Positions 34,643 to 56,816 of a stretch of 64,000 bases of DNA are shown piece by piece (position 1 is the first letter of the stretch; each line of letters opens with the position of its first letter). The notes beneath the pieces were generated by a model that was not told the DNA's origin, ran no database searches, and saw only the letters and a program-made list of their open reading frames with translations. The position numbers and the translations under genes are program-made. The DNA is from Selenomonas sp. AB3002 (lineage in GTDB: Bacteria > Bacillota > Negativicutes > Selenomonadales > Selenomonadaceae). Where the stretch lies: the NCBI RefSeq assembly GCF_000702545.1, contig NZ_JNIO01000008.1:1612001-1676000 (forward strand), read 5' to 3'.

Positions 34643-36766
34643 TTACTGCATCATGGTAGCCACATCGAGGATCAGTGCCACACGGCCATCACCCAGGACG
34701 GTAGCGCCGGAGAACATCTTCAGTCCGGCAAAGAGGTTGCCCAGGGTCTTGATAACAATTTCCTGTTGGCCAATGAGGTTGTCCACCACAATGCCGGCCT
34801 TGGCTTCGCCTGCATGCACCACCACCACGAAGATTTCGTCGTAGTCCTTCACATGAGGTACCTGCAGCAGTTCGCCCATACGGATGATGGGGATGATCTC
34901 CCCGCGCAGGACAATGACTTCCTTGTTCTGCACCGTCTGGATATCCGTTTCCTGGATGTTGATGGTGCTGTCGATGGAGCCAAGGGGAATAGCGTACATC
35001 TCTTCCTGTACCTTCACCAGCATGGCCTGGATGATAGCCAGGGTCAGGGGCAGCTTGATCTTGAAGACAGAGCCTTCATCCACATGGGTTTCAACATCCA
35101 CATGGCCGGACAGTGACTCAATCTTGCTGCGCACCACATCCATGCCCACGCCGCGGCCGGAAATATCGGAAATCTGCTCGGCAGTAGAGAAACCAGGCAG
35201 GAAAATCAGGCGTACAGCATCTGCATCGTCCAGTTTGTCTGCTTCCTCCTGAGAAATCATGCCCTTTTCCACGGCCTTCTTGCGGATCTTGTCCGCATTG
35301 ATGCCGGCACCATCATCGGTGACCATGATGACCACGTTGTTGCCTTCGTGGCGGGCGATGAGGCCAACCTCACCTGTGCGGGGCTTGCCCTTGGCCTCGC
35401 GGTCATCCGGGTGCTCCACGCCATGATCCAGGGAGTTTCTGAGGAGGTGCATGATGGGATCGCCGATTTCATCGATAACGGTACGATCCAGTTCTGTTTC
35501 CTCACCCTCGATGGTAAGGTTGATTTCCTTGTTGAGTTCCTTGGAAACGTCGCGAACCATGCGGGGGAAGCGGTTGAACACGGCACTTACCGGCACCATG
35601 CGCACCTTCATGACTATGTTCTGCAGATCCGTAGTGACGCGGTCCATCTGCTCCAGCGTCTCGGTGAGTTCTGTGAGCCTGTGAGTCTGGCCAATCTGCT
35701 CCAGACGAACCTTGTTGATTACCAGCTCGCCCATGAGGTTCATGAGAGTATCGAGTTTCTCGATATCCACGCGGACGCTCTGGCTCTGATGAGCCTTCTT
35801 CTGAGCGGAGGCGGCTGCAGGAGCTGCTGCCTTGGGCGGTGCCTTCTTGGCGGCAGGTGCAGGAGGAGCTGCTGCAGGAGGCGGTGCTGCCGCCGCTGCA
35901 GGCGCAGGAGCAGGTGCCGCTGCTGCGGCAGGAGCAGGTGCTGCTGCAGGCGCAGCTGCCTTATCGGGATCAACCAACTCCACCACAATCTTATCGATTT
36001 CAGAAATGGTGGTCAGAGCTTCCTCCACCACCTTGGGCTCAGAGCCGCTGACCATGAGAATGTCAAAGCTCTGCTCGAATTTTTCCTGCTCCAGTTCTTC
36101 AGCAGGAGGCACTGTCTTGATCACATCTCCCAGTTCATCCAGGGCATTCATGACCATGTAAGAACGGGCTGACTTCAAAAGGCAGGTATCAGAGAGGGTC
36201 ACCTGAATATGGATTCCCTGCAGGCCCCCTTCCTTGGCCTGGCGGATCATATTCTTGTCAGTCTCACTGAGCTGCAAAGCTGCCTCAGCTGCAGAAGGTG
36301 CTGCTGCAGGCGCAGGGGCAGGAGCTGCTGCTGCCGGTGCCGCCGCTGCCGGTGTTTCAGCAGCTGCCGGTGCCGGCGCGCCATCGCCTTTGGAAATGGA
36401 AGAAAGCTTGCTGACCAGGTCAGATACGTCAATAAGGTCTTCCGGGTCTCCATTGCCCACATTGTCAACCATCTGCTCCAAGGAGTCCAGGCATTTGAAC
36501 AGCGTATCAACGATGTCCTCAGTGAGCTTGATCTGCTCTTTGCGGATAAGGTCCAGTACATCCTCCATCTCATGGGTCAGCTCAGCAATCTTATTGAAGC
36601 CCATGGTGGCAGACATACCCTTCAGGGTATGAGCGTTGCGGAATATCTCATTAACAACGGAAATGTCTTCGGAGTTCTCCTCCAGTACCAGCAGGCCGTC
36701 ATTAAGAGACTGCAAATGTTCATGGGATTCATCCAAGAACATATCCATGTACTGATTCGTTTCCAT
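34643..36766 (-). CDS. cheA: Chemotaxis histidine kinase CheA
   Basis: The 707-residue kinase has an HPt domain with phospho-His46 in AHTLKG, a CheY-binding P2-like domain (LQGIHIQVTLSDTCLLKSARSYMVMNALDELGDV), P3 dimerisation (VRVDIEKLDTLMNLMGELVINKVRLEQI), ATPase P4 (LRNSLDHGVEHPDDREAKGKP, DDGAGINADKI, GRGVGMDVVRSKIESLSG) and a CheW-like P5. Two long Ala-Pro linkers (around 135-165 and 275-330) are encoded by GC-rich repeats. It phosphorylates CheY and CheB. Confidence 0.97.
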   Translation of the reverse strand: METNQYMDMFLDESHEHLQSLNDGLLVLEENSEDISVVNEIFRNAHTLKGMSATMGFNKIAELTHEMEDVLDLIRKEQIKLTEDIVDTLFKCLDSLEQMVDNVGNGDPEDLIDVSDLVSKLSSISKGDGAPAPAAAETPAAAAPAAAAPAPAPAAAPSAAEAALQLSETDKNMIRQAKEGGLQGIHIQVTLSDTCLLKSARSYMVMNALDELGDVIKTVPPAEELEQEKFEQSFDILMVSGSEPKVVEEALTTISEIDKIVVELVDPDKAAAPAAAPAPAAAAAPAPAPAAAAAPPPAAAPPAPAAKKAPPKAAAPAAASAQKKAHQSQSVRVDIEKLDTLMNLMGELVINKVRLEQIGQTHRLTELTETLEQMDRVTTDLQNIVMKVRMVPVSAVFNRFPRMVRDVSKELNKEINLTIEGEETELDRTVIDEIGDPIMHLLRNSLDHGVEHPDDREAKGKPRTGEVGLIARHEGNNVVIMVTDDGAGINADKIRKKAVEKGMISQEEADKLDDADAVRLIFLPGFSTAEQISDISGRGVGMDVVRSKIESLSGHVDVETHVDEGSVFKIKLPLTLAIIQAMLVKVQEEMYAIPLGSIDSTINIQETDIQTVQNKEVIVLRGEIIPIIRMGELLQVPHVKDYDEIFVVVVHAGEAKAGIVVDNLIGQQEIVIKTLGNLFAGLKMFSGATVLGDGRVALILDVATMMQ

Positions 36767-47161: not shown

Positions 47162-48442
47162 TTACTGCAGCTTGGCCGCCCTCTCAGCAGGACTTGCTAT
47201 CTCTGTGATGCGGACACCGAAATTCTCATCGATGACCACCACTTCCCCTTTGGCCAGGAACTTGCCGTTGACCTGGATGTCCACCGGCTCACCAGCCAGC
47301 TTGTCCAGCTCCACAATGGAACCGTTGGTAAGTTCCAGCACCTCTTTGATGGACTTGTGGGTCCTGCCCAGCTCAACCGTCACCTTCAGGGGCACATCCA
47401 GGATAAGGCCGATATTGGCATCATTTACCTGCACAGGCTCCATATTGAGAGGCACAAAGGCCGCTGGCTGCACTGGCACATTGGCCGCCATCTGCTGCTG
47501 GGACATCATGGGAGCGCCATAACCGTAGCCATAACCTCCGCCAGGAGGCATCCCACCGGGTGCCATAGGCGGTGGTGCCGCTGCCATAGCAGGCGGAGCT
47601 GCTGCCATAGGCGGTGGTGCTGCCGCCGGAGGCGGAGCTGCTGCCGGGGCAGCTGGCGGCGGTGGAGCAGGTGCCGGCGCAGGTGCCGGATCCACGTTGG
47701 CCTCGCCATTCATCAGCGACTCTACCATTTCCTTTGCCACATGAACAGGCAGGATCTGCATGATTTCACTATCTATGAGACCATCCACTTCCATGCGGAA
47801 GGAAATGCGCACGATGGGGTCATCGTTGCCGATGATTTCCGTGACCTTGTCCTCCGCCCCCAAATCGATAAGATTCACCTTAGGTGGCGAAATATCAATC
47901 TTCTTGTTGAACATGGAGGACAGCGACGTGGCCACAGTACCCATCATCTGGTTCATGGACTCGCCCACGGCACTCATCTGTATCTCACCGATATTGGTGT
48001 CAGGATTGGTGCCATCGCCTCCCATCATGAGATCTGCTATGATGGCAGCGTCCTGGGCCTGGATAGCCAGCACATTGTTGCCATCAATGCCTATGGTGTA
48101 GCCCACCTCCACAATGAGGTAGGGCATGGGATAATGTTCCTTGATGAGGCTCATGGTGGACACGGACACCGTAGGTGTGGTGATGTTCACCTTGTGGCCC
48201 AGCAGCACCGAAAGGGTGGTAGCTGCACTGCCCATGGAGATATTGCCTATCTCCCCCAAAGCGTCTTTCTCTATATCTGACAGCACATCTGCGAACTGAG
48301 ATGAATCATCAGACCCTGCCTCTGCTGGTCCGCCGCCTCCATCTGCCGACTCTCCCGCTGGTGCATCATCGCCTCCTGCCGGTGGCAAGCCGCCGTTCAA
48401 GAGAGCATCTATTTCCTCTTGCGAGATCATATCGTCACTCAT
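47162..48442 (-). CDS. fliY: Flagellar motor switch phosphatase FliY (FliN-CheC fusion)
   Basis: The 426-residue protein has an N-terminal FliM-like CheY-binding peptide (MISQEEIDALLNG), a CheC-type domain with DALGEIGNISMGSAATTLSVLLG and ESMNQMMGTVATSLS, a long Ala-Pro-Met linker (about 245-330) and a C-terminal SpoA/FliN domain (LILDVPLKVTVELGRTHKSIKEVLELTNGSIVELDKLAGEPVDIQVNGKFLAKGEVVVIDENFGVRI). It sits in the switch C-ring and dephosphorylates CheY-P. ATG at 48442 overlaps the fliM stop (ATGAGTGA). Confidence 0.96.
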   Translation of the reverse strand: MSDDMISQEEIDALLNGGLPPAGGDDAPAGESADGGGGPAEAGSDDSSQFADVLSDIEKDALGEIGNISMGSAATTLSVLLGHKVNITTPTVSVSTMSLIKEHYPMPYLIVEVGYTIGIDGNNVLAIQAQDAAIIADLMMGGDGTNPDTNIGEIQMSAVGESMNQMMGTVATSLSSMFNKKIDISPPKVNLIDLGAEDKVTEIIGNDDPIVRISFRMEVDGLIDSEIMQILPVHVAKEMVESLMNGEANVDPAPAPAPAPPPPAAPAAAPPPAAAPPPMAAAPPAMAAAPPPMAPGGMPPGGGYGYGYGAPMMSQQQMAANVPVQPAAFVPLNMEPVQVNDANIGLILDVPLKVTVELGRTHKSIKEVLELTNGSIVELDKLAGEPVDIQVNGKFLAKGEVVVIDENFGVRITEIASPAERAAKLQ

Positions 48443-49457
48443 TGGCTTCTTCATCTCCTTCGTTCAGGATCTCATCTTCATTGAGTATCCTGGTAATTTG
48501 TACCGCCATCTTCTTGCCTGAAGTTCCCGGGCGACAGAAGAACTTGGCCTTGCGGCCTATCCTGCATTTGAGTTCATCATCCACCTTGGTATCAAGCTGG
48601 AGTACGTCCCCAAACCCCAGGGTAAGGAATTCATTGATGGTAATGTTGATATCTCCCATTTCCACCAGGAAGGGCACCCTGGTTCTCTCAATCTTCCGCT
48701 GGAGGATTTTCACCTGTTCCGGGTCATCATCCTTGGAAACCGAGGATGCTACCCAGAAAGTAGTTGTGAGCTTGGACATGACAGGTTCCAATACCAGGTA
48801 GGGTATGCAGATATTCATCATGCCCTCTACCTCCCCCACCTTCATCTGAATGGTGACGATAACCACCATATCGCTGGGGGGCACAATCTGGGTGAACTGG
48901 GGATTGGACTCAGTGGCCTCAAGACTGGGATAGAACTCCACCACATTGGCCCAAGCTTCCTTCAGATGGGCTGTGGCCTTCTCCACGAAGCGCCTCATGA
49001 CAGCTTCCTCTATCTCAGTGAGAACACGGGTTTTGATGCCGCTCTTGCCCTCACCGCCAAAGACCCTGTCTATGAAAGCAAAGGCTATTTCCGTGTTCAC
49101 CTCCATGATGATGTTGCCCTTCAGGGGCGGCACCGCCAGGATGCTGATCACCGAAGGATTGGCCAGGGACTGGACAAATTCCTGGTAGGTCAGCTGCTCC
49201 ACCGAAGCCACTTCCACATTCACAATGGTGCGAAGATGGGTGGAGAGATAGGTATTAAGAAGCCTTGAGAAACTCTCATGCAGCATGAACAGAGTGCGAA
49301 TCTGATCCTTGGAAAATTTATCCGGACGCTTGAAGTCATAAGACTTGACTTTTTTCTGTTCTTCGTCTGCCTTGACCTCTTCCGCAGATACTGAACCGTC
49401 CGACAAAGCGGACAGCAGTTTGTCTATCTCGGATTGGGAAAGTACATCTTCTGCCAA
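48435..49457 (-). CDS. fliM: Flagellar motor switch protein FliM
   Basis: The 340-residue protein has the CheY-binding N-terminal peptide LSQSEIDKLLSAL, a CheC-like middle domain (TLFMLHESFSRLLNTYLSTHLRTIVNVEVASVEQLTYQEFVQSL) and a C-terminal SpoA domain (RVPFLVEMGDINITINEFLTLGFGDVLQLDTKVDDELKCRIGRKAKF). It forms the C-ring with FliG and FliY. Confidence 0.97.
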   Translation of the reverse strand: MAEDVLSQSEIDKLLSALSDGSVSAEEVKADEEQKKVKSYDFKRPDKFSKDQIRTLFMLHESFSRLLNTYLSTHLRTIVNVEVASVEQLTYQEFVQSLANPSVISILAVPPLKGNIIMEVNTEIAFAFIDRVFGGEGKSGIKTRVLTEIEEAVMRRFVEKATAHLKEAWANVVEFYPSLEATESNPQFTQIVPPSDMVVIVTIQMKVGEVEGMMNICIPYLVLEPVMSKLTTTFWVASSVSKDDDPEQVKILQRKIERTRVPFLVEMGDINITINEFLTLGFGDVLQLDTKVDDELKCRIGRKAKFFCRPGTSGKKMAVQITRILNEDEILNEGDEEANE

Positions 49458-50427: not shown

Positions 50428-50961
50428 TCAGCCGTCACTTGCTGCTGCCCCCGCCCCTATGCGGGTAATATCGCCTACCTTCACCTGATAGGTCTTGCCG
50501 CCTTCTTCGGCAATGATGGTGGGACTGCCATCGGAAATGCTGACCCCCGTGACTTTCCCCTCATGCTTCACGGAATCTACCCTCAGATTGCCTTCCTCAT
50601 CTGTATAGCTGGTAGACTCGCTCCACTGCAAGTCCTGACCAATCATGTGGCTAAGCTGTCCCACCAGCACAGAAGTATCGATATTGCCCACCAGCTTGGA
50701 AACTTCAGACAGTCCGTCTGACACATTGGTCATCTGCTCAAGGGCAGAGAACTGAGCCAGCTGGGCCAGGTATTCACCGTTATCCTGTGGATCCAGGGGA
50801 TCCTGATACTGCATCTGGGTTACCAGAAGCTGCAAGAAAGCATCCTTGCCCAAAGCAGAGTTATCCTTAACGGTCTTTGCTGCCTTCTCAGCTGCATATT
50901 TGGCGGCGTCATAAGTTATGCCATCCACGGTAATGGTATTGAGCGCTGTTGAATCCGACAT
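50428..50961 (-). CDS. flgD: Flagellar hook assembly scaffold FlgD
   Basis: The 177-residue protein contains the FlgD N-terminal signature LGKDAFLQLLVTQMQYQDPLDPQDNGEYLAQLAQFSALEQM. It caps the growing hook for FlgE polymerisation. It ends with a short Tudor-like beta domain. A terminator follows in place of flgE. Confidence 0.95.
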   Translation of the reverse strand: MSDSTALNTITVDGITYDAAKYAAEKAAKTVKDNSALGKDAFLQLLVTQMQYQDPLDPQDNGEYLAQLAQFSALEQMTNVSDGLSEVSKLVGNIDTSVLVGQLSHMIGQDLQWSESTSYTDEEGNLRVDSVKHEGKVTGVSISDGSPTIIAEEGGKTYQVKVGDITRIGAGAAASDG

Positions 50962-50975
50962 AATATCCCTCTTCT

Positions 50976-53588
50976 CTACACGCGGTAATCCACGCCATCA
51001 TCAGCCACGTTTTCCTGTCCCTGGGCCAGCGCTGCTGCGGCCAGATCATCTGCTTCTTCTGCATAGTCTTCAGGCTTTCTCTCCCCGCTGAATCTTCCCT
51101 GGGAGCCCTGCTGCCAGGCCTGCTGTCCCTGTCCCTGAGGCAGCTGCCCATCCGGCAGTCCGGAAAAGACCTCCACGCTGTCCACCTTCAGGCCCTGGTC
51201 GCTTAACTCCTGCCGGAGCTGCACAAGGCTGTTTTCGATGATGGTGCGCACCTGGGCATTGTCGCTGTGGAATGATGCTGTCACAGCTCCGCCTTCAGTC
51301 ACAGAAATCTTCAAGGTGAGGTCACCCAGATGCTCCGGCTTCAAGTGGATCACCATTTCCGTGCTGTCGCCGCTGCGAATCAGCCGGGCCTGCTCCACAA
51401 TCTGCCTGGGCACCTCAAAGTCTGTCTGGGACTCCGAAGTTGCCTGAGGTGTATCTGCAGGAGCAGCTGCTTCCTGCAGCTGTTGCTGGAAATTGCTTCC
51501 CTGCACAGCCCCTGCATTATGCTGCGCAGCCTGAAGAGGAACTGCCCCTTCCTCGTTTTCCACAGGTGCTGCCAGCTGCTGTGCCCTTTCGAAAGACCTG
51601 GCACTGTCGTCCTGATTCTGCTGGAAAGAACTCTCTCCCTGAGCTGTCTGATTGTGCATTACCCGCAAAGGCTCAAGTTCAGCCTCTGCCTGTTCTGCAT
51701 GCACCTCACTGCCCAGAAGCACATGCTGCCCCTCCTGTCTCGGCGCCACACTCTCAGCAGCAGAAGATGCCATCTGCACCTGTGGAATCTCCTGCTGAGA
51801 CATATGCTGCGTTACCTGCTGTATTAATTGCGGTGTTACCGGCTGGGTTACTTGCTGATGTACCGGCTGCACCACTTGCTGGGGCATCTGATGCATTGCT
51901 TGCTGGGGGTCCGGCTGCGCTGCTTGCTGAGGCATCTGCTGCGTCACTTGCTGGGGCATCTGCTGCTCCACTTGCTGGGACATCTGCTGCGTCACTTGCT
52001 GGGGCATCTGCTGCGTCACTTGCTGGGGCATCTGCTGCGTCACTTGCTGGGGCATCTGCTGCGTCACTTGCTGGGGCATCTGCTGCGTCACTTGCTGGGG
52101 CATCTGCTGCGTCACTTGCCGGGGCATCTGCTGCGTCACTTGCTGGGGCATCTGCTGCGTCACTTGCTGAGGCATCTGCTGCGTCACTTGCTGGGGCATC
52201 TGCTGCGTCACTTGCCGGGGCATCTGCTGCGTCACTTGCTGGGGCATCTGCTGCGTCACTTGCCGGGGCATCTGCTGCGTCACTTGCTGGGGCATCTGCT
52301 GCGTCACTTGCTGAGGCATCTGCTGCGTCACTTGCTGGGGCATCTGCTGCGTCACTTGCCGGGGCATCTGCTGCGTCACTTGCTGGGGCATCTGCTGCGT
52401 CACTTGCTGGGGTATCTGCTGCGTCACTTGCTGGGGCATCTGCTGCGTCACTTGCTGGGACACCGGCTGCGTTGTTTGCTGGGGTACCTGCTGCGCTGCT
52501 TGCGGGGACATCTGCTGCGTCACTTGCTGGTGGGACACCTGCTGCGTCATTTGTAGGCGTAACTGCTGCGTTGCTTGCTGGGGCACCTGCTGCATTACTT
52601 GCTTGGGTTCCGGCTGCGCTACTTGTTGCATTACTTGCTGGGATACCTGCTGCGTTGCTTGCTGGGGTATTTGCTGCATTATTTGCTGAGACATCCGCAA
52701 AGTCACTTGCTGGAGCACCTGCGGGGTAACCTGCGGGGGCATCTGCTGAGTCATCTGCACAGTCTGACTGGTTTGGCCAACTTGCACAGTCCGGTCCGGC
52801 AATGCAGAAGCAATCACCCTCTCAGACTGCTCCATCTGTCCTTGCATCTCAGGCTGGGAAGCCTGCTGCCAGGTTCTTGCGGTCTGTCTCAATGCCAGAG
52901 CCAGCGGATCTGTTGGTTCTGCTTCCTGCAATGACCGACCAAGGATCTGTATATTCTGCCTGTTCTGAACATCTGTGGGCAGCGCCTGCTGCTGAAACAT
53001 CTTGCCTGGCACTGGTTCAGACTGCTGCCTGATGCCTTCTGCCACACCTTCTTCCTGTGCCTGCGGCACCTGCCAGGCAGCTGACAGCCTGCCCCTGGCT
53101 TCCTGCCTCTGGCTGGAGGTAAGATCTCCCGAGAGCATGGCCAGAAAATCGCTATTCTTCACTGCCGATTCTTCGCTTTGGGGCAAAAGGCTTCTAAGGC
53201 TCTGCCCAGATTTCTCCGGCATGATATCCTGTGCCTTTATCAAATCTCCACTCAGGGGTGCTTCACTGGAAAATTCTATCACAGCAGCCGGTGCCTCGAC
53301 AGGCACATCTTCAGATAAAAGCTGCTGCACTGGCAGCACCGCCCCCATAACCAACGAGTGATGGGGTGCGCCTTCCCTGCCGCTGCCGCCATCCCGTGCA
53401 TCCATATCCTGTGGAGCTTCATCCTTGTCACTTAACGTGATTTCTCCCTGGGCCTCTTGTTGCAGACGACCCAATGCTTCATCGAAATTCCCTTTCGATG
53501 TGTCCGGACCCTTGAGTATGCTCCTGCTGCCACCCTTAGAAGCAGCCTCTGCCTGCATCCCCATGGCCATAACATTTGTGTTAGTCAT
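50976..53588 (-). CDS. fliK: Flagellar hook-length control protein FliK with a large octapeptide repeat
   Basis: The 870-residue protein has an N-terminal export/ruler region, a Gln-rich stretch from about residue 280 to 600, and a C-terminal Flg_hook domain (EMVIHLKPEHLGDLTLKISVTEGGAVTASFHSDNAQVRTIIENSLVQLRQELSDQGLKVDSVEV). Residues about 375-551 are 22 near-identical copies of QQVTQQMP, flanked by decayed copies. FliK is secreted and measures hook length, then switches FlhB specificity. Typical FliK is about 400-500 residues, so this one is long. ATG at 53588 has AGGAGG nine bases upstream; the frame extends to 53675. Composition differs sharply from its neighbours within the repeat. Confidence 0.93.
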   Translation of the reverse strand: MTNTNVMAMGMQAEAASKGGSRSILKGPDTSKGNFDEALGRLQQEAQGEITLSDKDEAPQDMDARDGGSGREGAPHHSLVMGAVLPVQQLLSEDVPVEAPAAVIEFSSEAPLSGDLIKAQDIMPEKSGQSLRSLLPQSEESAVKNSDFLAMLSGDLTSSQRQEARGRLSAAWQVPQAQEEGVAEGIRQQSEPVPGKMFQQQALPTDVQNRQNIQILGRSLQEAEPTDPLALALRQTARTWQQASQPEMQGQMEQSERVIASALPDRTVQVGQTSQTVQMTQQMPPQVTPQVLQQVTLRMSQQIMQQIPQQATQQVSQQVMQQVAQPEPKQVMQQVPQQATQQLRLQMTQQVSHQQVTQQMSPQAAQQVPQQTTQPVSQQVTQQMPQQVTQQIPQQVTQQMPQQVTQQMPRQVTQQMPQQVTQQMPQQVTQQMPQQVTQQMPRQVTQQMPQQVTQQMPRQVTQQMPQQVTQQMPQQVTQQMPQQVTQQMPRQVTQQMPQQVTQQMPQQVTQQMPQQVTQQMPQQVTQQMPQQVTQQMSQQVEQQMPQQVTQQMPQQAAQPDPQQAMHQMPQQVVQPVHQQVTQPVTPQLIQQVTQHMSQQEIPQVQMASSAAESVAPRQEGQHVLLGSEVHAEQAEAELEPLRVMHNQTAQGESSFQQNQDDSARSFERAQQLAAPVENEEGAVPLQAAQHNAGAVQGSNFQQQLQEAAAPADTPQATSESQTDFEVPRQIVEQARLIRSGDSTEMVIHLKPEHLGDLTLKISVTEGGAVTASFHSDNAQVRTIIENSLVQLRQELSDQGLKVDSVEVFSGLPDGQLPQGQGQQAWQQGSQGRFSGERKPEDYAEEADDLAAAALAQGQENVADDGVDYRV
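51937..52464. repeat. Tandem array of 22 copies of a 24-bp unit in fliK
   Basis: The unit TGCTGCGTCACTTGCTGGGG CATC (plus-strand phase) repeats 22 times without gaps; differences are mainly single bases (TGCTGG to TGCCGG, CATC to TATC, TGGGG to TGAGG). The unit length is a multiple of three, so copy gain or loss keeps the fliK frame. Degenerate copies continue on both sides, from roughly 51,790 to 52,750. Long open frames on the opposite strand are by-products of the repeat. Confidence 0.97.
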
Positions 53589-53687
53589 CCGGCTCACACC
53601 TCCTCTCAGATTATGTATCGACAAAAAAGACGGATTCCTTAAGCCTAAAATGGAATCCGTCCCTGAATTTGCCACTTATTTCTCATT

Positions 53688-54314
53688 TTATTCAGAAGGA
53701 GCCTCCCCATTCTTGTTCTCTGCTCCTTCACCCTGACGAGCCTCTAGTTCCAGCTGCTTTTCAATATCCGCCGCAGTCTGGAGATTCTTCTTGGTGCCCT
53801 CGTAGATAATCTGGGTCAGTCTGGCAGCCTTGGCCGGCTCAAATTCCGACAGGACTTTGGCAGCCGTACCCTCATCCATTTTCTGGAGAATAGTCACAGC
53901 CAGGTCGTCATCCAGGGCATCAAGAGCCTCTGCCGCATCCTTGGGCTTCATGCCATTGTACAGCCGGGCCAGCTTTGAGACCCTTTTCTTCTCCGCAGCT
54001 TCTCTTTGCTGCATCTGTTCCTCTATTTCCTTCTTGGACAGGGTCAGTTTCTTGGACTGCTTCTTGTCCTCAGCCTTGGGCTTCACATCCTCCACAGGCT
54101 TTTCTTCCATTTCCTCCTGTTCCGGAGGGGGCTTCACGAAATACTGGCCCACCACCGGCAGGTTATAAAGCCCCAGCTTTTCATTCATTTCCGCTGTATC
54201 AAAGATGCGCAGATAAACTCCCAGAGCAAAGCCGCCTATGACTAGCACCAGGAGCAGGAAAAGCATCAGTATGACCTTGAAGATTTTCTTTCCCCCGCCT
54301 TTTTTCTCTGCCAT
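53688..54314 (-). CDS. YlxF/MotE-like flagellar protein (MgtE N-like domain)
   Basis: The 208-residue protein has one membrane helix (about 12-34), a charged Pro-Lys-Glu linker, then a helical MgtE-N-like domain (VSKLARLYNGMKPKDAAEALDALDDDLAVTILQKMDEGTAAKVLSEFEPAKAARLTQII). YlxF occupies this place in Bacillus fla/che; MotE-type relatives assist the stator. ATG at 54314 with AGGAG close upstream. Confidence 0.82.
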   Translation of the reverse strand: MAEKKGGGKKIFKVILMLFLLLVLVIGGFALGVYLRIFDTAEMNEKLGLYNLPVVGQYFVKPPPEQEEMEEKPVEDVKPKAEDKKQSKKLTLSKKEIEEQMQQREAAEKKRVSKLARLYNGMKPKDAAEALDALDDDLAVTILQKMDEGTAAKVLSEFEPAKAARLTQIIYEGTKKNLQTAADIEKQLELEARQGEGAENKNGEAPSE

Positions 54315-54348
54315 CTTATCTCCTGCCTTCATTCATAGTGTATTTGCT

Positions 54349-55490: not shown

Positions 55491-56816
55491 TCACCCTGAG
55501 ATGCCTGTCAGCTTCTGTTCCGTTACTTCAAAAGAATCAACTTCAAAAATGCCCTGGCAGAGAAAATCATTGATGCTGTCGATTTTTTGCACAGCTTCAT
55601 CTATCTTCTTGCTGGAGCCCTTCACATAAGCCCCGATGTGAATGAGGTCCTCTGCCTCCTTATAGACAGCCATCAGCTGCCGCATGGACTGGGCAGCCTT
55701 CAGATGCCTTTCCTCCACCACTTCATTCATGACACGGCTGACGCTGCCCAGGATATCTATAGCCGGAAAGTGGTTCTGGGCAGCAATAGCCCTGGAAAGG
55801 ACAATATGTCCATCAAGGATGCTTCGCACAGCATCAGCAATGGGCTCATTCATGTCGTCACCATCTACCAGCACTGTGTAGATGCCAGTGATAGAGCCCT
55901 TTTCGCTGGTACCCGCCCTCTCCAAAAGTCTTGGCAGCAATGCAAAGACCGAAGGGGTATATCCACGGGTAGCAGGCGGCTCTCCGATAGTCAGCCCCAC
56001 CTCACGCTGGGCCATGGCAAAGCGGGTGACGGAATCCATCATGAGTATGACCTTGTGGCCCTGGTCGCGGAAATACTCCGCAATGGCCGTGGCGGTCATA
56101 GCTCCTTTGATGCGCACAAGAGCAGGTGTATCCGAGGTAGCCACTACCACCACAGAGCGCTTGAGGCCTTCCTCTCCCAAATCCCTTTCAATGAAATCGC
56201 GCACCTCACGGCCGCGCTCTCCCACCAGGGCGATGACGCTGATATCAGCTTCGGTATTTCTTGCAATCATGGAAAGCAGGGTGGACTTGCCCACCCCGGA
56301 ACCTGCCATGATGCCGATGCGCTGGCCTTCCCCCATGGTAATGAGGCCGTCTATGGCCCTGACTCCCACATAAAGACTGTCCTTGATACGGGGGCGGGTA
56401 AGAGGAGGTGGCGGCGGCGCCTGCAGGGGATACTCCTTCTTCATCAGCAGCGGTCCCTTGCCATCCATGGGATTGCCCAGGCCGTCAAGCACCCGGCCCA
56501 AAAGCTCCGGGCCAACTTTCACCTGCAGCATTTTCTGGGCAGATACCACTTCGCAGCCAGGGCCTATGCCATGCATCTCCCCTACGGGCATCAGCATGAC
56601 ATACCCTTCCCTGAAACCTACTACTTCTGCCGGTATGGGGGGCACATCAGGGAAGTGGGAACTGACATAGCACAATTCCCCCACGCTGACGGTGGGCCCC
56701 TGTGATTCTATGACCAGGCCGATAACCTGAGTAACCTTGCCTGTGAGCTTCATGCTGTGGCAATCTGCAATGGCTTCCTTGAACTTGGCTATATTGACCT
56801 GCACCGGCCCCTGCAT
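55491..56816 (-). CDS. fliI: Flagellum-specific ATPase FliI
   Basis: The 441-residue F1-beta-like ATPase has Walker A GIMAGSGVGKSTLLSMIA, GERGREVRDFIE, Walker B VILMMDSVTRFAMAQREVGL and GSITGIYTVLVDGDDMNEPIAD. It powers early steps of type III export with FliH and FliJ. Confidence 0.97.
   Translation of the reverse strand: MQGPVQVNIAKFKEAIADCHSMKLTGKVTQVIGLVIESQGPTVSVGELCYVSSHFPDVPPIPAEVVGFREGYVMLMPVGEMHGIGPGCEVVSAQKMLQVKVGPELLGRVLDGLGNPMDGKGPLLMKKEYPLQAPPPPPLTRPRIKDSLYVGVRAIDGLITMGEGQRIGIMAGSGVGKSTLLSMIARNTEADISVIALVGERGREVRDFIERDLGEEGLKRSVVVVATSDTPALVRIKGAMTATAIAEYFRDQGHKVILMMDSVTRFAMAQREVGLTIGEPPATRGYTPSVFALLPRLLERAGTSEKGSITGIYTVLVDGDDMNEPIADAVRSILDGHIVLSRAIAAQNHFPAIDILGSVSRVMNEVVEERHLKAAQSMRQLMAVYKEAEDLIHIGAYVKGSSKKIDEAVQKIDSINDFLCQGIFEVDSFEVTEQKLTGISG

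Follow-up and report, generated by a model that had tools for sequence, protein, structure and literature searches.

In-frame repeat arrays and the length of the flagellar ruler protein FliK in Selenomonas and other Selenomonadaceae

The fliK gene of Selenomonas sp. AB3002 and its repeat array

The window (the whole stretch of DNA analysed here) is 64,000 nucleotides of Selenomonas sp. AB3002, positions 1,612,001 to 1,676,000 of contig NZ_JNIO01000008.1. Its minus strand carries a flagellar gene cluster that includes fliK, the gene for the ruler protein that controls hook length. Inside fliK are 22 head-to-tail 24-bp units in codon register, each encoding QQVTQQMP (consensus CAGCAAGTGACGCAGCAGATGCCC). 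A conserved N-terminal block precedes them, and the C-terminal Flg_hook domain follows (Table 1). Turnover of such in-frame repeats, with unrelated units, recurs across the family Selenomonadaceae and is probably a major route by which the ruler changes length between lineages. It is this recurrence, more than the array of the window alone, that gives the locus its interest.

Twelve of the 22 units are identical to the consensus, and there are six unit types in all. Units 4, 8, 10 and 14 have a Gln-to-Arg change, units 5, 11 and 21 have silent changes, and the remaining three variants occur once each, as Ile, Ser and, through a change of two bases, Glu. At 52506-52529 there is a 23rd copy, with a single mismatch. 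Tandem Repeats Finder (TRF) calls a longer array (51866-52607, 30.8 copies, 88%, score 1107) because degenerate copies flank the core on both sides. Chance does not produce such an array: the highest TRF score in 100 codon shuffles of fliK is 65. With near-identical head-to-tail units beyond chance, it has the structure of an intragenic variable-number tandem repeat (VNTR). It is also the top tandem array in the 464 kb of its own genome that were scanned (the window and 20 stretches of 20 kb), where the runner-up scores 385. A search of the genome for further copies of the unit found none beyond fliK; the 23 matches at no more than two mismatches are all within the gene.

Much of this had been anticipated in an earlier note on this DNA, which described a frame-preserving array of 22 QQVTQQMP units in the ruler part of a FliK protein. 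TRF and unit typing bear out the units and their number, and every 24-bp unit is in frame. The array had been placed at 51937-52464, for which the length of 528 bases is right and the position is shifted by 7 relative to the codon register, 51930-52457. The note had also read the scattered single-base variants as a sign of homogenisation, and a duplicated block of six units (see below) supports this. As for the ruler part, the array occupies the stretch that corresponds to the ruler or linker of Salmonella FliK.

That the gene encodes FliK, as the note had also proposed, follows from several observations. The C-terminal 159 amino acids (aa) score 70.7 bits against PF02120, where the cut-off is 29.8, and this match (C8:1663144-1663377) is the sole PF02120 match in the genome. 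Of the solved structures, a profile built from 30 relatives matches only 2rrl, a hook-length control protein (E 4.1e-6). The gene is thus single-copy, has flagellar neighbours and, as far as sequence can tell, is fliK. Relatives align with the protein from the ATG at 53588. No Pfam or NCBIfam family matches the full-length protein, although PF02120 is matched when the C-terminal part is taken by itself; the biased composition of the protein is the probable reason. Among nine long relatives, eight match PF02120 and one, the 866-aa FliK of L048, does not. In other words, repeats can hide FliK from the standard profile scans used in annotation.

Table 1. Features of the fliK region; coordinates are positions in the window.
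Feature	Coordinates	Strand	Basis
fliK, 870 aa from the likely ATG at 53588 (899 aa if GTG at 53675)	50976..53588	-	Open reading frame, PF02120
Core array, 22 x 24-bp units (QQVTQQMP)	51930..52457	-	TRF and unit typing
Units 4-9, first copy of six-unit (144-bp) block	52218..52361	-	Unit types, permutation test, self-match
Units 10-15, second copy of six-unit block	52074..52217	-	Unit types, permutation test, self-match
Degenerate repeats upstream of the core, tetrapeptide pattern QQ[VMIA]x, with near-perfect unit 52506-52529	52458..52745	-	TRF
Degenerate downstream repeat units	51786..51929	-	TRF
Conserved N-terminal block (LRSLLPQ...DFLAMLSG), upstream of array	53127..53198	-	Invariant columns L131-G154, alignment of nine FliKs
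Flg_hook domain PF02120, C-terminal export-switch core	51144..51377	-	PF02120 match, 2rrl profile match
flgD (hook cap), directly downstream of fliK	50428..50961	-	PF03963
MgtE_N-like protein of cluster, directly upstream of fliK	53688..54332	-	PF03448
fliI-type export ATPase, same cluster	55491..56816	-	PF00006 and T3SS_ATPase_C

Several side observations concern repeats and annotation. Long plus-strand frames lie opposite fliK (51440-52729, 429 codons; 51828-52556, 242 codons), and are probably open because the repeat has no stops in those frames. The second-strongest tandem array in the 464 kb is a 42-bp unit in 7.1 copies at L246:3160-3454. Within the window, short degenerate Ala/Pro-rich repeats (35858-35959, minus strand) lie in a linker of a CheA-like 707-aa open reading frame (ORF; 34643-36766), and degenerate Pro/Ala/Gly repeats (47561-47690, minus strand) lie in that of a 430-aa ORF (47162-48454) resembling the FliY/FliN switch protein; both names are read from the ORFs. 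Elsewhere in the family, the FliK arrays of L076 and L089 draw doubtful matches to Fibrinogen_BP (below cut-off) and Lysostaphin_N (above cut-off), which are a possible source of wrong annotation. Many family genomes give two matches, and genome G002 has, next to its true FliK, a QGQ-repeat-rich protein with weak similarity to PF02120 (L007).

How the array may have arisen

The array holds traces of its own history. The two 12-bp halves of the 24-bp unit agree at 8/12 bases, as they would if a QQ[VM]x motif had been doubled. Together with the QQ[V/M/I/A]x tetrapeptide pattern of the flanks, this makes it seem that a 12-bp motif was doubled and then expanded. A later step can be read from the variants. 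Units 4-9 and 10-15 have the same variant series, which amounts to a 144-bp duplication of six units, and permuted unit orders rarely match such a series (p 0.007, 20,000 permutations). The longest exact self-match of the array is 191 bp, at offset 144, and this is a length of identity on which recombination can act. Variants and duplication together fit what repeated slippage or unequal recombination would leave. Three of the 11 base changes relative to the consensus within the array are silent, a share near the 18% that absence of selection on the residues would predict, although these are small numbers.

Could the array, or its copy number, be a product of assembly? Tandem arrays are often misassembled (PMC6868369), and the genome is a draft of eight contigs. 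However, the array is well inside a 2.14-Mb contig, it has distinct unit variants and degenerate flanks, it keeps the frame, and comparable arrays are present in many other assemblies. An artefact is therefore highly improbable, but the exact copy number given for the window may be off.

Repeat arrays in FliK across the Selenomonadaceae

FliK was matched in 160 of 189 genomes of the family, and one fliK was taken from each of 120. These genomes were chosen by hand among the matches listed, mostly by rank of the C-terminal match, so the survey omits most genomes of the genus-like group g6 and many low-ranked or short matches. Adding the window gives 121 genes, of which 21 run into a contig end and 100 are intact. 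Frame lengths in the survey run from stop to stop and exceed the first-ATG length by 6-29 residues in ten genes checked.

It is clear that the array of the window is not alone. A TRF array with a score of at least 100 is present in 34 of the 100 intact genes (window included). Intact frames range from 362 to 1466 aa with a median of 609; the median is 782 aa (362-1466) for those with an array and 581 aa (524-802) for those without. Over the 100 intact genes, frame length follows the array nearly residue for residue (608 + 0.97 x array residues, r 0.85). The export gate FlhA, taken as a control, varies only from 688 to 754 aa among the full-length family matches listed. Frame is preserved throughout: periods are divisible by three in 89/89 TRF rows of score at least 100, from 47 genes, these rows being overlapping and not independent arrays. 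Beyond the family, the 899-aa frame of the window is third among the frames listed for 61 genomes of the phylum (52 with a match), after 961 aa (G151) and 937 aa (G229). A search of a plasmid collection for FliK relatives gave one distant match, in Acetoanaerobium.

The arrays resemble each other in position and composition, not in their units. No array of an intact gene reaches the C-terminal domain (the smallest gap is 36 aa, in L115), and the earliest start is at residue 38, in the 362-aa gene L063. Arrays with a score of at least 150 occur in 44 genes (31 intact, 13 cut), with main units of 6-83 residues that fall into 24 clusters, a clustering that is crude for Q/P-rich units. When the 10,112 array residues are pooled, 25% are Q, 14% P, 9% T and 9% V; cysteine is absent, and there are next to no aromatic residues.

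Gain or loss of arrays has been frequent. Among the 100 intact genes, the tree of the C-terminal part requires a minimum of 16 transitions between presence and absence of an array. For 12 independent pairs, the means are 6.1 with the array-bearing member in the longer class, 0.0 with it in the shorter class and 5.9 without a difference (median p 0.03).

The sister species of the window give a more detailed picture. One sister species (L059, 803 aa) has a 120-bp unit of score 509 in the same stretch of FliK, and another (L153, 645 aa) has a 30-bp unit of score 97 there. Two further sister species (564 and 582 aa) have no array of score 100, and in a fifth the gene is cut by a contig end. Relatives have gained and lost repeat units, therefore copy-number change does alter the length of FliK over evolution, as the earlier note had supposed. 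Its further idea of a switch-like device is another matter (see below).

Strain names could be attached through equal gene length and identical last 900 bases, by which 62 of 80 named loci are surveyed genes. The genus of the window consists of rumen-type Selenomonas genomes, part of them filed as S. ruminantium; g22 holds the S. ruminantium group, while the Quinella genome 2Q5 (L217) belongs to g11 and S. massiliensis (L181) to g6. The longest FliK proteins are those of the Quinella group. The FliK frames of S. ruminantium strains span a wide range: WCT3 524, GACV-9 545, Z108 702, S137 705, HD4 744 and ATCC 12561 961 aa. Among these six, only Z108 and ATCC 12561 have an array of score at least 100. 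In Selenomonas sp. ND2010 the frame is 529 aa. In g6 the frames are 544-599 aa in 13/14 genomes (among the matches listed). Seven named strains, mostly from the human mouth (S. infelix, S. flueggei, S. artemidis, S. felix, Centipeda periodontii, oral taxon 892 and FOBRC6), have frames of 548-585 aa. Thus frames are steady in the oral-type Selenomonas of g6 and often expanded in the rumen lineages (the Quinella and S. ruminantium groups). Lifestyle or cell size could be the cause of this difference.

Close pairs, contig breaks and the question of a switch

Nine close pairs were aligned. L054 and L056, with 97.5% identical C-terminal DNA, are one repeat-like block of 13 residues apart. L133 and L151 (96.3%) are six residues apart, with VANAEN beside VANAAD. 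L135 and L139 differ by several blocks, one of which has 27 residues, the unit length of their array, and between L097 and L127 there are small changes and a single block of 12 residues. In L131 and L132 the difference is confined to the start, and L149/L152, L230/L234 and L144/L148 are separated by many scattered gaps. The ninth pair, L139 and L173 (UBA3715), is the only same-species pair found; L173 and L174 (RUG12654, the named copy of L139) are 98.1-98.4% identical over about 10 kb.

Arrays also leave their mark on assemblies. In the 40 g11 genomes surveyed, fliK is cut by a contig end in 15/40 whereas FlhA is fragmented in 2 of the 37 found (Fisher p 0.0008); counting the three genomes without an FlhA match as failures makes this 5/40 and p 0.019. 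Overall, 12 of the 21 cut fliK genes end inside an array.

Perhaps, then, fliK is a contingency locus whose copy number changes frequently within a population, giving cells with different hook lengths. Exact repeats of 191 bp lend themselves to recombination, some close relatives are whole units apart, and the arrays often break assemblies. However, such breaks are also expected from repeats that are merely longer than a read, and as a sign of instability they were rejected: they show only that arrays exceed short reads. The precedent from elsewhere is not encouraging either. Excerpts of PMC2639597 describe intragenic repeats of Legionella pneumophila that are in frame, have units divisible by three and vary in copy number between strains for some genes, yet 0/26 of these arrays changed during three months of passage. 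The main text of that paper contains neither 'fliK' nor 'flagell', and the effect of each copy is unclear there, whereas a ruler gives a direct prediction of length. In addition, one unit would be worth less hook than the natural scatter (see below). A contingency locus is thus very unlikely.

The phase-variation device suggested in the earlier note fares no better. An on/off phase-variable gene has a unit that shifts a frame or a promoter. The 24-bp units, like the 89 TRF rows of the family survey, cannot break the frame, therefore the array is no on/off switch.

From ruler length to hook length

What a longer FliK may do can be judged from Salmonella. Its FliK shares with the protein described here the C-terminal PF02120 domain and the division into an N-terminal part, a flexible middle and a C-terminal switch, and a longer middle is known to give longer hooks. 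According to excerpts of PMC6972891, this 405-aa protein is divided into a ruler (residues 1-207), a flexible, proline-rich linker that serves as ruler as well (208-267) and the switch (268-405). The Selenomonas protein is different in its size (870-899 aa) and in having a middle of near-identical tandem units. In an engineered series (PMC6126814, in excerpt), FliK proteins of 363-785 aa gave hooks of 42-135 nm, linearly and at 0.2 nm per residue, and those lengthened in the middle were functional up to 785 aa with tight length control. The series used inserted helical parts of YscP, whereas the arrays here are natural, Q/P-rich and probably unfolded, in frames of up to 1466 aa. An AlphaFold2 model of FliK from nine sequences has a predicted local distance difference test (pLDDT) score of about 38 in the array, which is modelled without secondary structure. 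This fits an unfolded chain and proves nothing.

A ruler of another kind offers a parallel. Tape measure proteins of phage tails and FliK are, to our knowledge, unrelated, and the two are likened here by description. In tape measure proteins the number of repeats is reported to be proportional to tail length (as cited in excerpts of PMC8616913). They belong to another machine and have 11-aa units with aromatic markers, whereas the FliK arrays are nearly without aromatic residues.

Were the Salmonella slope to apply here, the core array with its 176 residues would be worth about 35 nm of hook, or 65 nm for a chain stretched out in full (0.37 nm per residue). A single unit would then account for 1.6-3 nm (1.6 at 0.2 nm per residue). 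The standard deviation of wild-type Salmonella hooks is 4.5-5.6 nm (PMC6972891, in excerpt), therefore single-unit slips would be nearly invisible. A change by the six-unit block, about 10 nm, could be selectable. Taken together, these figures speak for a slow tuning or drift of length rather than a switch.

The mechanism that we propose is as follows. The array would be a recent expansion, by slippage or unequal recombination, of first a 12-bp and then a 24-bp motif within a secreted, probably unfolded ruler or linker stretch. Each unit would lengthen by eight residues the Q/P-rich chain that joins the N-terminal block to the C-terminal switch domain. The longer chain would permit more hook growth until the C-terminal domain reaches FlhB and brings hook export to an end. 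Total length and a composition that can be secreted would be under selection, the repeat sequence would not, and the array would not serve as an on/off switch. With moderate confidence, then, in-frame repeat turnover changes the length of the ruler between lineages and probably that of the hook too.

What if length does not matter, and a tolerant low-complexity stretch simply expands and shrinks? The hook could remain unaffected through a slack linker or through compensating affinities of FlhB and FlgE. Such length-neutral drift would explain why array residues look unconstrained in sequence, why units are wholly different between many species and why FliK varies in length among relatives without arrays too. 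Moreover, deletions in the Salmonella linker partly affect FlhB binding and loosen control, and do not act on length alone (PMC6972891, in excerpt). However, the 363-785-aa series of Salmonella did change hook length linearly (PMC6126814, in excerpt), and the steady frames of g6 are unexpected under pure drift. This explanation is rather unlikely, though it deserves more credit than the contingency locus.

A role for repeat turnover in ruler and hook length has several observations against it. Array-free intact FliK proteins still span 524-802 aa, therefore repeats are not the only source of length variation. In g11 arrays explain less than in the family as a whole (slope 0.77, r2 0.64). Several of the nine close pairs differ by gaps and not by clear repeat units, and in the same-species pair there is an assembly gap of 61 Ns inside the 81-bp array of L173 and the unit sequences are arranged differently. 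The array survey has one genome per species, the tree is built solely on the short C-terminal part of FliK, and array counts from draft assemblies may be wrong. The poor AlphaFold model (mean pLDDT 42) cannot fix the conformation of the chain or the nm per residue. Finally, Salmonella motility is lowered by FliK proteins of at least 520 aa (PMC6126814, in excerpt), therefore long rulers would be costly here if the same slope held.

In the open-licence literature searched, two papers mention both S. ruminantium and hook length, and the excerpts of one of them give no value for this species. In the same literature no title or abstract concerns repeat variation in fliK, subscription papers not being covered, and excerpts of PMC5015957 and three further papers make no mention of repeats in the gene. 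The textbook hook is 55 nm long. Haya et al. 2011 reportedly give the S. ruminantium hook as almost twice that of Salmonella. At the Salmonella slope, if it held, hooks of about 150 nm would be predicted for the species of the window and of up to about 270 nm for the 1466-aa frame.

A natural experiment in ruler length

A bolder idea can be put forward tentatively. The FliK ruler of the Selenomonadaceae might be an evolutionary tuning knob, above all in the rumen group including Quinella, with in-frame expansion of unrelated repeats, time after time, producing hooks several-fold longer than 55 nm and with repeat number perhaps still in flux within species. This is an enticing possibility, if a doubtful one.

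The evidence for the ruler on which this report draws comes from engineered length mutants of Salmonella, and the family described here offers a natural experiment. Its species have rulers of about 520 to more than 1400 residues, reached through visible gains of repeats, and could test outside Salmonella whether a ruler sets the length of an organelle. The S. ruminantium strains with frames of 524-961 aa make the idea testable within one named group. The experiment would extend to the hook length that suits bacteria with lateral tufts of flagella and to the evolution of length control, and it would be a clear case of repeat copy number mapping onto a measurable dimension.

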